Positions 53,399 to 58,082 of a stretch of 64,000 nt of DNA are shown here, piece by piece. Numbering within the stretch: position 1 is the first letter of the stretch; each line of letters begins with the position of its first letter. The notes below the pieces were generated by a model. That model was not told where the DNA came from, did not search any database, and saw only the letters and a list, made by a program, of their open reading frames with translations. Source of the DNA: Symmetrospora coprosmae. Its lineage: Eukaryota; Basidiomycota; Cystobasidiomycetes; Symmetrosporaceae. The DNA lies in the NCBI GenBank assembly GCA_008802785.1, contig VUYT01000030.1, positions 62,001-126,000 of the forward strand, written 5' to 3'. The position numbers and the translations under genes were made by a program.

Positions 53399-53644
53399 CT
53401 TCGGGGTGGCTAGTCCCACAATATCGAAGCGGTAATCCACATATAGCCGCGGTCATCCATTCATGTAGCCAAATACGAAAGCTATTTGTCGATTGCGCAG
53501 ACGGGAATCCTAGGGATACAGGGGGCAGAAGACAGGACTAGACACTCAGGACTCATAGCATGACGTGACAAAGACTGACTGTTCGCAGGTGGCACAACGG
53601 TTCGAAGAAGAAGCGGAACCGCCACGAGTGCCGGATACGAGCGC

Positions 53645-54564
53645 CTAGTGCTGACCGGGACGTGCCTCGGCAGACGTCTGACCGGTCGTGACCTGAGTAG
53701 TGAGCAGGAAGTCGTGGCAACGATTCAGTCGTCGGAGCCTTCAACGAAGGTTCGAGGGTCAGCTCGCCACTTACCGACTGCGAAACGTCAATGCTTCCCG
53801 AGATGCTGCCTGTCTTGCCCTCAATCTTCTTCTGGTAATCGCGGATGGCAGCCTTGATGGCATCCTCTGCCAGCATGCTGCAGTGGAGCTTGACGGGCGG
53901 CAAGCTGAGCTCCTTTGCGATCTCGGTGTTCCTGATCTTGCCGGCTTCAGCGAGCGAGAGGCCCTTGACACGCTCAGTCATGTATGACGACGAAGCAATG
54001 GCGCTCCCGCAGCCAAATGTCTTGAATCGCACGTCCGAGATGATGCCCTTGTCGTCGACCTTGATCTGGAGCTGTAGAGTCGGAGATGTCGGCGGATGGC
54101 CGGGCCTGCTCAGCTCTGGGCTGCTTGGGCGAGCAACAGGCCAGACGAGAACTACACACCTTCATGACATCACCACACGCTGGTGCACCGACGAGACCGG
54201 TACCGATGTCGAGGTCAGACTTGGGGAAGCTTCCCACCTGGTCGTCGAGCATAGGCATTGTCAGCTTTTCCTGGCACCGTGCTTGAGCCGGACCCTGCAG
54301 GCAGAGCGGAAAGAGTCACTCACGTTGCGAGGCTTCTCAAAGTGGTCTGTCGTGAAAGTGGGTAGATGAAGTCAGCGAACAGTCCACACGCGCGAGATGC
54401 CAAATGTGCGACCTTTCGCACTCACCGACAACGTTCTGGTGGTATCCTCGCCTCGATCCTGCGGGACCGGCGAGAGCAGCGGCGAACCCGGGCTGCCTGG
54501 CTGCGGCAATAGGTGAGGCCTTGCGGAGGAAGGCAGAGCTGGCGGATCGGAGCGTGGACTGCAT
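53645..54564 (-). CDS. ISU1: Isu1, mitochondrial iron-sulphur cluster scaffold
   Basis: Scaffold on which mitochondrial Fe-S clusters are built by Nfs1-Isd11 and handed over by the Hsp70 system. The presequence MQSTLRSASSAFLRKASPIA is followed by RRGYHQNVV, then DHFEKPRNV, GSFPKSDLDIGTGLVGAPAC, GDVMK, LQIKVDDKGIISDVRFKTFG and CGSAIASSSYMTERVKGLSL. All three cluster-ligand Cys are visible (APACGD, FGCGSA, LHCSML). The LPPVKLHC segment is the known Hsp70 (Ssq1) recognition site. After DVSQS a perfect GTAAGT donor and a CTACTCAG acceptor lead to a short last exon (VTTGQTSAEARPGQH) ending at 53645-53647. At least four introns are used. Confidence 0.95.
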
Positions 54565-55048: not shown

Positions 55049-56456
55049 CTAATTCCCCTCATCGAGCTGTTCTTCCTCCTTGAGGGCTGCCTGCGCAGCA
55101 TCCCTGTAGTCATTGAGCGCCTGGAGCGCCCGCCCGTCCTTGATGGCCTCGCGGGCCCTCCTGACGCCATCCTTCTCGTCCGACGCGATCCCGCTCACAA
55201 CGAGGAGCGCAGCAGCGTTCATGACGACGAAATTCTCTATCTGGTTCGTGGCAGAGTCGAGTTTGCCGCCTAGGAGGTCCAGGATGAGCTGCGCGTTCTG
55301 GTGCGGCAGCCCGCCTGCGACCGATGAGAGGAGGTGCGAGGGCAAGCCGAATGTCTCGGGCGAGATCACTCGCGGTGTGATGGTTCCGTCGCGCAGCTCC
55401 CAGATCTATACACGGTCAGGCGGTGATGCAGCAGGAGGTGGGTGAATGGGAAAGGAAGGCACGAATGGGCAGAGAAGGCGGGTGATAGACAGGACGAAGC
55501 CGTCTTAGCAATATAGCACGAACATCCTCCAGAGCACAGGTCATAACCGCCTGCACTCACATGCGTCGTCCCTTCAGGGCTGATCTCGTCTAACCCCTCG
55601 TCTCCGTTGACGACCCAAGCACGCTTGACGTTCAGACTCCGCAATGCTTCCGCAAAGGGCAAACCGAGATAACGCGAGTGGACACCGACGACCATGTAGT
55701 CTGGTCTTGCCGGGTTGAGCAACGGTCCCAGAACATTGAAGATTGTTGGGTGACCCAGTTGCCGGCGGATGGGCGCGACGAGGGCCATTGCAGGGTGGCA
55801 GAGGGGCGCAAAGAGGAAGAGGAACGGGTGCTTGAGCGAGGTGGCGATGCTTGGTATCCGCGAGAGTGGGAGGGAGGTGATGGGTATGCCGAGGGCCAGC
55901 AAGACGTCGGCAGACCCCGAAGCTGAGGAAGACGCTCTTGCGCCGTGCTGGTCGAGTCACAGGAACCCGGTAAGCGCATGAAAGGTGTAAGCCCCTCTGA
56001 GAGAGGACTCACCTTGCACACGCGCACTCCCGCTCCTGCTGCCACGATAGCCGCCGTCGTCGAGACATTGAACGTGTCCTTTCCGTCTCCGCCTGTTCCT
56101 ACCAGATCCGCCCAACCCTGACCATCTTCCAGCTCGAGGTCAACGCGGATGGCGCGCTCGCGCATGCATCTTGCCGCCATGGACATCATCTCCGGCTTGC
56201 CCTCGAGCCCGCTCGCGCGCAGCAGGGCGAGGAACGCGCCAATCTGGTACTCGGTGCATGCTTCTGGCTTGAAGAGGTGGTCGAGGGAGCGGGCGAGCTC
56301 GGCGGGGGTGAACTCGGACGGGACGGTCGCGAGCTTGGAGAGGAGGGGCTCAAACGTGGATGAAGTGAGCTCTGTCGAGCTGCTCGAGGACGAGCCGGCA
56401 TTGCCTGATCTCCCGTCGTCGCCGTGTCCTGCGTGCAGAGCTCGAGATTTTGGCAT
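55049..56456 (-). CDS. TRP4: Anthranilate phosphoribosyltransferase (tryptophan synthesis)
   Basis: Second step of tryptophan synthesis: joins anthranilate and PRPP. Exon 1 (56456-56013, 148 codons) has the helical N-terminus FEPLLSKLATVPSEFTPAEL and the PRPP loop DLVGTGGDGKDTFNVSTTAA (GTGGDG at residues 120-125). After an intron at K148 comes HGARASSSASGSADVLLALG, then LFAPLCHPAMALVAPIRRQL, GHPTIFNVLGPLLNPARPDY, AWVVNGDEGLDEISPEGTTH with the metal-binding Asp-Glu, and VISPETFGLPSHLLSSVAGG. It ends QLDEGN at 55049. The HG-A-R where the family usually has HGNR is slightly odd. All other catalytic motifs are intact. It is head to head with a degenerate paralog. Confidence 0.95.
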
Positions 56457-56712
56457 GGTTGCGACGGGCGGACAGAGCGTTAGCGGGCAGGTATCGGCGG
56501 AAGTGACGACCGAGGCGATGTCCAAGATCAACGAGTGACCGTAGATGCGCGCTTGATGCTCCTGCGTTGCCTTCCTGTTGCTCGACGGTGTCGCGGTTGA
56601 GAAGGAGGAGGAGGAGCAAGGCACGTGCCGCTTACGCCTGCATGCACCTCTCTCGACGAGCATCCCTCACCGTTACGACCACCAGGGAGGAGTCACAACC
56701 GCACGCATAGCC
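56457..56712. promoter_or_regulatory. Divergent promoter region of TRP4 and its paralog
   Basis: Only 256 bases separate the two start codons, so the paralogs probably share regulatory sequence. I looked for a Gcn4-type TGACTC/TGAGTCA box and did not see a perfect one; GAGTGAC is at about 56530-56536 and GGAGTCAC at about 56688-56695, both near matches. Confidence 0.5.
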
Positions 56713-58082
56713 ATGGCCATCTCGAGTGGGCAGAGCAATGGACACGGCGATGAGCCTGCCGCTGGTGCTCCAGCTCCTGCAGCGGAATACACCATCCAGA
56801 CATTCAAGCCGCTCCTGTCAAAGCTGCTGCAGCGACCCTCCGAGTACACGCCGGCAGACCTCCGCGCCGCCCTCGAACATCTCGCATCTGGGCACATCTC
56901 GCATGCTCAGACAGGCTCCTTCCTCGCTGGCCTCAAGGTCACAGAGGTCTGGCGCAGGCCGGACCTCGTCGAGATCATCGTCCGCTTCATGAACCACTTG
57001 AGCGGAAAGGTCAAGGTCGGGGCAAAGGGACATGTCTGCGATCTCACCTGGACTGGCGAGAGCGCGCTGTCCGTCATCAATGTTGCACTGCCAGCGGGCA
57101 TCATTGCTGCAGGCGCAGGATGCAGGGTCGTCAAGGTGGGTCCGACCCCAAAATCGCATTCTACCCTGGTCGTACAGATGCCAGTAGAGTTGGCTCACAC
57201 ACTCGACGGCCACAGCACGGCAACGCATCCTCGCCCTGGCCATCTACACCGAGCTCCGGAGATATTCTCACCGCACTCTCCGTTCCGACGACCACCCTCC
57301 CCCCCTTCTCGCTCACGAAAGTCGCACAGTCCCGGCACGTACCGTTCTTGCACATCTTTACACCCCGCTACTCGCCTCGCTTGACCGCCATCAGCCCACT
57401 GCGTCGCGAACTCGGCTTCGAGACCATCTTCCACACCTTCAGCTCGCTCATCTCGCCGTGCAAGCGGGACTTTCTCGTCATTGGCGTGCACGAGGAGCGA
57501 CTCGGCCAGGTCTTTGCAGAGGCGCTCAAGACGCTCGGCGCGACACGTGCGTGGGTTGTGCACTGCGAGGCAAACGGGCTCGACGCCATCTCGCCCGAAG
57601 GCGAGACGACCGTCTGGGTGCTGGACACGACAGCGAGCGAAGCAGCAGGCGACGCGCAGATCACGCGGCGGACCATCTCGCCAGAGGTGTTTGGCTGCCC
57701 GTCGCATCCCTTGGCGAGTGTGCAGCTGCCCAACTCTGCTGCCTCAAACTACGCTGTGCACGCAGCCATCATTGCGTCCCTGCTCTCGCCGCGCCGCCTC
57801 CGCTCGTCTCCACCGGCGCCCATCACGACGCCCTACGAGCCGGACGCGTACGGTACGACGCAGGCCATCGACACAGCTGCCGTAGAGGACTTTGTGTGCC
57901 TGAATGCGGCGGCTCTCATCTTTGTCGCTGGGAGAGCGCCCGACGAGAAGAGCGCGTTCGAGCTCGCGAGACGAAGCTTGCGCGACGGGAAGGCGTATCA
58001 CGCGCTTGAGGCGCTCAGAGATGCAGCGGCATTGAGCGTGGACACGGATGACAGGCAGCTAGAGGGCAGCGATAACGAGTAG
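56713..58082 (+). CDS. Degenerate anthranilate phosphoribosyltransferase paralog, probable pseudoenzyme
   Basis: Two exons, 56713-57135 and 57216-58082, give 429 residues in one clean frame. It clearly aligns with TRP4: TFKPLLSKLLQRPSEYTPAD, INVALPAGIIAAGAGCRVVK, then HGNASSPWPSTPSSGDILTA, HIFTPRYSPRLTAISPLRRE, FLVIGVHEERLGQVFAEALK, AWVVHCEANGLDAISPEGET and ISPEVFGCPSHPLASVQLPN. The intron splits the same Lys-His junction as in TRP4. The catalytic signatures are lost: GTGGDGKDTFN is WTGESALSVIN, the HPAM segment is SPRL, FNVLGPLLNP is FHTFSSLISP, and the Asp-Glu metal pair is Asp-Ala. It also has a longer loop (LLSPRRLRSSPPAPITTPYE). The frame is intact with no stops, so it looks maintained. 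A non-catalytic partner or regulator of Trp4 is an inference. Confidence 0.85.

Follow-up and report, generated by a model that had tools for sequence, protein, structure and literature searches.

Why would a fungus keep, head to head with its TRP4 gene, a second copy of that gene from which the catalytic motifs have gone? We addressed this question in a 64,000-nucleotide stretch of Symmetrospora coprosmae DNA (contig VUYT01000030.1, positions 62,001 to 126,000; hereafter the window), which holds TRP4, the gene for anthranilate phosphoribosyltransferase (AnPRT), and the altered copy, here called the paralog. The original prediction, made from the sequence, described the paralog as a two-exon gene with an uninterrupted frame, and this was borne out: the product has 429 residues and the frame has no internal stop. 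Both gene models also place its intron, as predicted, at the Lys-His junction occupied by TRP4 intron 1; all three introns of the pair have GT-AG borders, and the second TRP4 intron is without a counterpart in the paralog. TRP4 lies complete within the window and encodes 395 residues. The head-to-head genes are separated by 256 bp from ATG to ATG, the distance given originally. For the gene span of 56457 to 58082 proposed at first, the end was right, being the end of the stop codon, and the start was not, since 56457 is the first intergenic base and the ATG lies at 56713. The predicted alignment with the neighbouring TRP4 was recovered with 157 of 382 aligned positions identical (41%), and third-codon-position GC is 0.753 in both genes. 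The paralog matched PF00591 (E 4.6e-33, 115.4 bits, cut-off 27) and PF02885 (E 7.9e-6, 26 bits, printed equal to the cut-off of 26), and because of these matches its likeness to AnPRT is not a matter of chance. When the 20.05 Mb assembly was searched in all six frames (5 candidates scored, 4 matches), PF00591 was found only in exons of TRP4 and the paralog.

To describe the altered residues, we compared 19 fungal TRP4 rows, a set that excludes bacterial rows, P0036 and P0214, with paralog rows including the window's, with fewer rows where fragments end. The near copies P0007 and P0198 were dropped from the site counts, giving 20 paralog rows. Also uncounted were a 77-residue fragment (P0282), the unspliced frame of the window paralog itself (P0001) and P0202, which appears to be the P0002 gene called twice. 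Residue contacts were taken from an AnPRT review (PMC9835598), and equivalents are given in Mtu numbering. Every motif loss that had been listed is present: GTGGDG has become WTGESA, Asp-Glu has become Asp-Ala, HPAM has become SPRL and LGPLLNP has become FSSLISP. GTGGD, of the loop that binds phosphoribosyl pyrophosphate (PRPP), stands in 18 of 18 fungal TRP4 rows; the paralog loop reads Met/Trp/Phe-Thr-Gly-Glu-Ser in 5 of 5 rows (xTGES in 6 of 6 counting P0007, window included). The Mg-binding Ser (S119) is replaced by Ala, and the adjoining pyrophosphate-contacting Thr (T120) by Leu, in all four paralog rows covering these sites, and the Mg-binding Glu is replaced by Ala in 17 and by Gly in 2 of 19 rows. 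Equivalents of Glu252, Thr120, Asp111, Gly110 (now Glu) and Gly107 (now a bulky residue) are lost in every covering row, and the GGxPxxNA residues near the C-terminus are altered. Retained are the equivalents of Asp251, next to the lost Glu (19/19), Asn117 (4/4), Arg193 (9/10, with one Lys), Asn138 (6/7) and Lys135 (4/5). The Glu in the 5′-phosphate loop would disfavor phosphate binding there. Yeast trp4-S121A grows without tryptophan, according to PMC12750150, so the Ser change alone is no proof of inactivity; it is because of the combined residue changes that we find the loss of catalysis persuasive. Against the NCBIfam trpD equivalog TIGR01245 (cut-off 199.05), the ortholog P0002 scored 185, below the cut-off, and the partial P0003 scored 139.4; the TRP4 control P0009 reached 286.4.

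With the pocket set drawn from the motifs, sites at least 90% conserved in fungal TRP4 were changed in the paralog at 17 of 29 pocket positions versus 16 of 74 elsewhere (Fisher p 7.6e-4). At 11 of the 17, parts of TGES and PSTPSSGD among them, a new residue is fixed at a level of 80% or more. The Mg-PRPP contacts of AnPRT have thus largely given way to other fixed residues, at the GTGGD loop, at the Ser and Glu that bind Mg and at the Thr that touches pyrophosphate, and we infer that PRPP is no longer bound by the paralog in the known way. The AnPRT fold was predicted with confidence for the paralog, which on this model would keep the fold of Trp4. An insert, LLSPRRLRSSPPAPITTPYEPDAYGT, could be made out in the majority of the 18 paralog rows spanning it, least clearly in P0006, P0196 and P0209, and was not seen in the three TRP4 rows compared.

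We looked for relatives with protein searches that reach only sequences sharing exact words with the query and in which only top candidates were scored. With the paralog as query, 7998 candidates were scored and 76 matches listed; with aligned parts of paralog exon 2, the figures were 7995 and 97; and with TRP4, 7999 candidates were scored, of which 6662 passed and the best 120 were listed. A search of related genomes had been proposed as a check, and at least 21 paralog relatives, at 51-97% identity, were found among the matches listed; some cover a single exon, so they do not necessarily represent 21 genomes. One of them, P0002, comes from the metagenome-assembled genome (MAG) Cyphobasidiales sp. 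Tagirdzhanova-0007 and bears the database name anthranilate phosphoribosyltransferase, and its catalytic residues are absent. Two TRP4 exon pieces of P0109 (129 and 119 residues) occur exactly in P0077 of EMM_F5, which its announcement assigns to Microsporomycetaceae (PMC12697161). As judged from these matches, Cyphobasidiales have the paralog, and the EMM_F5 lineage of Cystobasidiomycetes probably has it too. No sequence that we read as this paralog came from another class among the matches listed in these exact-word searches, no TRP4 was named from the MAG holding P0002 among the best 120 of 6662 TRP4 matches, and a scan of viral contigs found no relative of P0002. In the tree, nine paralog rows and four Cystobasidiomycete TRP4 rows each formed a clade of their own (both 100/100), which makes the duplication look older than the split of the sampled lineages. 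The paralog stem measures 1.46 changes per site versus 0.40 for the Cystobasidiomycete TRP4 group. A clade of the paralog with Cystobasidiomycete TRP4 had support of 89/78 in the smaller tree, a node not settled in the larger tree, and residues exclusive to the paralog and Cystobasidiomycete TRP4 (2 sites) or to the paralog and Microbotryomycete TRP4 (3 sites) did not place the duplication.

Selection on the paralog was assessed with P0007, a near relative identical to the window paralog at 136 of 140 aligned exon-1 positions, whose gene call continues through the intron and enters exon 2 in a wrong frame. The resulting tail of 56 residues differs at 15 places from the window sequence read in that frame, each difference explicable by one base change, and all 15 fall at in-frame third positions and are silent; the expected silent share is 0.377 (p about 4e-7, assuming shortest paths, equal rates and ungapped alignment). 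A ratio of nonsynonymous to synonymous substitution rates (dN/dS) near 1 had been named as a sign of decay, and this indirect test speaks against it. The out-of-frame tail of P0011 gives a similar picture: it could come from DNA whose true frame specifies 80 of 83 residues of its relative P0003, and none of 200 shuffled targets tried at that offset exceeded 30 residues. The test demonstrates compatibility and does not reveal the DNA itself. Conservation on shared columns was 120 for the paralog versus 133 for TRP4 of 186, and 90 versus 98 of 150, and neither difference was significant. The at least 21 relatives, the silent-only changes in a near relative and a conservation close to that of TRP4 strongly support the prediction of a retained pseudoenzyme rather than a decaying copy. 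Taken together, these comparisons make it very probable that the gene codes for a Trp4-derived pseudoenzyme that has been retained, folds and is under selection.

What the protein does is a separate question, on which its position bears. P0010 (TRP4) and P0199 (paralog) share a source and a matching contig size of 20597, and P0109 (TRP4) and P0209 (paralog) likewise share a source and a contig size of 184866; we read each pair as lying on one contig. Linkage of TRP4 and paralog is thus apparent in two other lineages, whose paralogs are only 56% and 65% identical. This apparent linkage and the rewritten pocket are compatible with a Trp4 partner, with co-expression and with a new ligand. In the window, the region between the two genes carries CACGTG within a palindrome, GGCACGTGCC, at 56622 and GAGTCA at 56690, a half-site that we take to resemble a Gcn4-type site; a scan of the region for bacterial promoters and terminators, a method ill-suited to fungi, found none.

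The best explanation, which we advance tentatively, is that a Trp4-like pseudoenzyme is co-made with Trp4 from the 256-bp region and acts non-catalytically at the Trp4 step. Both proteins would be produced together from the shared region, and the paralog might form a pair with Trp4 by way of the dimer helices, or else bind anthranilate, or a carboxylate like it, in a half-site where most rows still have the equivalents of Arg (Mtu R193) and Asn (N138). The outcome would be a tuning of Trp4 stability or of anthranilate supply. Action at the Trp4 step is in itself a possibility that we take seriously without relying on it. A Trp4-paralog heterodimer specifically is unlikely, and our estimate for it was lowered somewhat, from an already doubtful level, because the dimer helices are not better kept than other sites. 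More speculative again is a class-wide regulatory Trp4 subunit, a PRPP-dead twin with a shared promoter, pairing and the carboxylate Arg kept, that would act as a sensor or store of anthranilate and adjust the second step of tryptophan synthesis. We rate co-production with a role at the Trp4 step and a new-ligand protein independent of Trp4 as nearly equal in likelihood, and slightly favor the former because of the apparent linkage.

Several observations weigh against a role at the Trp4 step or soften the evidence for it. With the dimer helices placed by motif, these helices keep 9 of 10 conserved sites versus 49 of 64 elsewhere (p 0.68), and the consensus is shared at 18 of 37 dimer-helix sites versus 151 of 285 others (p 0.73). 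Retention there is no better than elsewhere, so a partner role is not singled out, and dimer-helix retention as evidence for pairing is weakened; the residues that are kept would suit a homodimer equally well. In the AnPRT review, the two active sites are described as not in contact and the dimer as contributing to stability, with no direct part in activity (PMC9835598); this role of the dimer makes an allosteric heterodimer less likely and favors stabilisation or buffering. The half-site for anthranilate is also without the H183 and G107 equivalents, and in P0196, with introns cut by eye, the K135/H136 equivalents are Thr-Thr. Invariant paralog sites make up 18 of 35 in the pocket versus 119 of 322 outside (p 0.10), a rough comparison in that row numbers differ by region. 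Linkage is only inferred, for two of five other Cystobasidiomycete-type TRP4 sequences (P0077, P0078, P0010, P0109 and P0212); P0078 and P0212 lie on contigs of less than 4 kb, and no paralog with the contig size (730574) of P0077, the EMM_F5 GenBank TRP4, was among the matches listed. Finally, database proteins are open frames by construction, so that the absence of stops in them is no evidence of retention.

A neofunctionalised protein independent of Trp4 is the closest competitor and a comparably open possibility. Such a protein would be a homodimer with another small molecule as the ligand or substrate of its rewritten pocket, and the head-to-head arrangement would be only the leftover of an inverted tandem duplication. 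The eleven pocket sites fixed to a different residue would fit, as would the family insert and the long stem that precedes shorter crown branches; linkage to TRP4, however, apparently persists at the two identity levels given above, where a leftover would tend to vanish, and no new catalytic motif was recognised in the paralog.

We consider it quite improbable that the paralog is a nucleic-acid-binding or scaffold protein working like TrpD2/YbiB. P0002 scored 44.2 bits with PRK07394 and 32.8 with PRK09071, models that we presume to cover TrpD2-like proteins; both matches are far under the cut-off, and its TIGR01245 score places P0002 nearer TrpD than TrpD2. YbiB was not among the best 50 structure matches in either search, which excludes nothing. 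PMC9835598 and PMC10123104 describe TrpD2 as having the AnPRT fold without the PRPP motif, a feature that the paralog shares, as binding nucleic acids and as lacking AnPRT activity. The paralog differs in being fungal, in being far closer to TRP4 (41% identity, versus less than 20% between TrpD2 and AnPRT; PMC9835598) and in not being strongly basic overall: whole-protein net charge is -5.2 in the window, -7.5 in P0196 and +1.7 in P0002, against the highly positive grooves described for YbiB (PMC10123104). Of the known families that have the AnPRT fold but no PRPP motif, TrpD2/YbiB is the nearest, yet it is distinct by sequence.

Weak AnPRT activity through altered metal binding is very unlikely. 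The growth of yeast trp4-S121A, which lacks the Mg-binding Ser, without tryptophan (PMC12750150) and the retention of the Asp251, Asn117 and mostly Lys135 equivalents would allow it, but in the paralog the loss of Ser is combined in all covering rows with losses of Glu252, Thr120, Asp111, Gly110 and Gly107, and the adjoining TRP4 has these catalytic residues. A decaying, functionless duplicate, which the lost motifs and somewhat fewer identities than TRP4 on shared columns might suggest, we regard as already refuted by the range of relatives, the silent-only changes in P0007, the possible in-frame reading of P0011 and the confident predicted fold.

Table 1. Features of the TRP4/paralog locus, in window coordinates.
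Feature	Position	Strand	Basis
Paralog exon 1 (residues 1-141)	56713..57135	+	ATG at 56713; start backed by alignment with P0007 and P0002
Presumed helix alpha1 of paralog (TFKPLLSKLLQRP), AnPRT dimer face	56800..56838	+	Alignment; alpha1/3/8 role from PMC9835598
WTGESA replacing GTGGDG PRPP loop	57049..57066	+	Alignment
NVALPAG replacing NVST (Mg-binding Ser to Ala, adjoining Thr to Leu)	57079..57099	+	Alignment
KHGNASSPWPSTPSSGD, intron-split; rewritten active-site lid with two-residue insert	57133..57263	+	Alignment
Paralog intron, 80 nt, GT-AG, Lys|His junction	57136..57215	+	Junction matches TRP4 intron 1
Paralog exon 2 including stop (residues 142-429)	57216..58082	+	Gene model
TPRYSPRL replacing APLCHPAM	57360..57383	+	Alignment
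IFHTFSSLISP replacing IFNVLGPLLNP	57426..57458	+	Alignment
LDAISPEG replacing LDEISPEG (Mg-binding Glu gone)	57579..57602	+	Alignment
Paralog insert LLSPRRLRSSPPAPITTPYEPDAYGT	57780..57857	+	Alignment
Region between both ATGs, presumed bidirectional promoter	56457..56712	.	Promoter role inferred
TRP4 exon 1, to Lys of KHG; carries GTGGDG, NVST	56013..56456	-	Gene model
TRP4 exon 2 (HGARASSSASGSAD, HPAM, LGPLLNP, LDE)	55561..55947	-	Gene model
TRP4 exon 3 including stop	55049..55405	-	Gene model

Some further observations concern the pair and its surroundings. Judged by eye from translated introns, P0011 and P0196 seem to have an intron three residues after TGES, and P0003 and P0282 one at the TRP4 intron-2 position; the window paralog has neither. 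P0003, on a 1027-bp contig, is intronless across two sites where P0011 or the window have introns, and may be a spliced transcript. Complementation between Trp4 and the paralog at the Asn of KHGN, where the window TRP4 has Ala and the paralog Asn, was considered and rejected, as the site varies anyway: the 19 fungal TRP4 rows have Asn in 10, Ala in 5 and Ser in 4, and yeast has Gly (G141; PMC12750150 and PMC9835598). The Ala, at TRP4 residue 151, is found in the four Cystobasidiomycete TRP4 rows and in Wallemia. Matches to PRAI and to the chorismate-binding domain were found in the assembly, so at least parts of the remaining tryptophan pathway are present. The chorismate-binding domain (PF00425) gave a single match, at G000:C44:322876-323754 (one candidate scored); a second would be expected, for p-aminobenzoate synthesis. 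Downstream of TRP4, a frame on the minus strand at 53553-54161 matched NifU_N (E 3.8e-33) and is presumably an ISU-type iron-sulfur scaffold gene.

Among known systems, the paralog shares ancestry, predicted fold and two-domain layout with Trp4/TrpD AnPRT (phosphoribosyltransferase type III; PF02885 and PF00591) and retains the Asp251, Asn117 and mostly the Arg193 equivalents. It differs from AnPRT in that the PRPP loop, the Mg-binding Ser and Glu, and the HPAM and GPLxNP segments are replaced, and in having a two-residue lid insert and a C-terminal insert. The original prediction knew of no described Trp4 pseudoenzyme partner in fungi, and we likewise found no AnPRT pseudoenzyme matching this protein in open-access titles and abstract starts on AnPRT pseudoenzymes, inactive or heterodimeric AnPRT, fungal TRP4 paralogs and Cystobasidiomycete tryptophan genes (best 10 of 2,382 in one listing), a scope outside which subscription papers and preprints largely fall. 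To our knowledge, no regulatory pseudoenzyme partner has been described for any AnPRT.

Retention under selection without catalytic residues, as expected of a pseudoenzyme partner, is what the comparisons of the paralog point to, and two plant proteins offer parallels. PDX1.2 of Arabidopsis pairs with its active sisters, and differs from the Trp4 paralog in fold and pathway. As an inactive paralog boosting its own pathway, vitamin B6 synthesis, it is a model for the heteromer reading (PMC12727527). Like the protein studied here, TSB-like of core eudicots is a paralog without catalytic activity, retained throughout a large clade, of an enzyme in the tryptophan pathway; unlike it, TSB-like activates TSA, another subunit of a known complex, and belongs to another enzyme step and another kingdom (PMC12727527). 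By analogy, TSB-like sets a precedent for an inactive twin with a role in tryptophan synthesis. We know of no complex partner of the TSA kind for Trp4.

Because related fungi retain the same altered copy, it probably does a different job. The AnPRT fold is described in the review as unique among phosphoribosyltransferase enzymes, and all solved structures as homodimeric (PMC9835598). A twin that is conserved without catalysis would offer a natural way to test which other functions the fold and the dimer have, and would be an unrecognised addition to the amino-acid metabolism of a group of fungi including Cyphobasidiales. As P0002 illustrates, the name anthranilate phosphoribosyltransferase may in these fungi belong to the inactive twin, and pathway reconstructions that rely on such names may be wrong.
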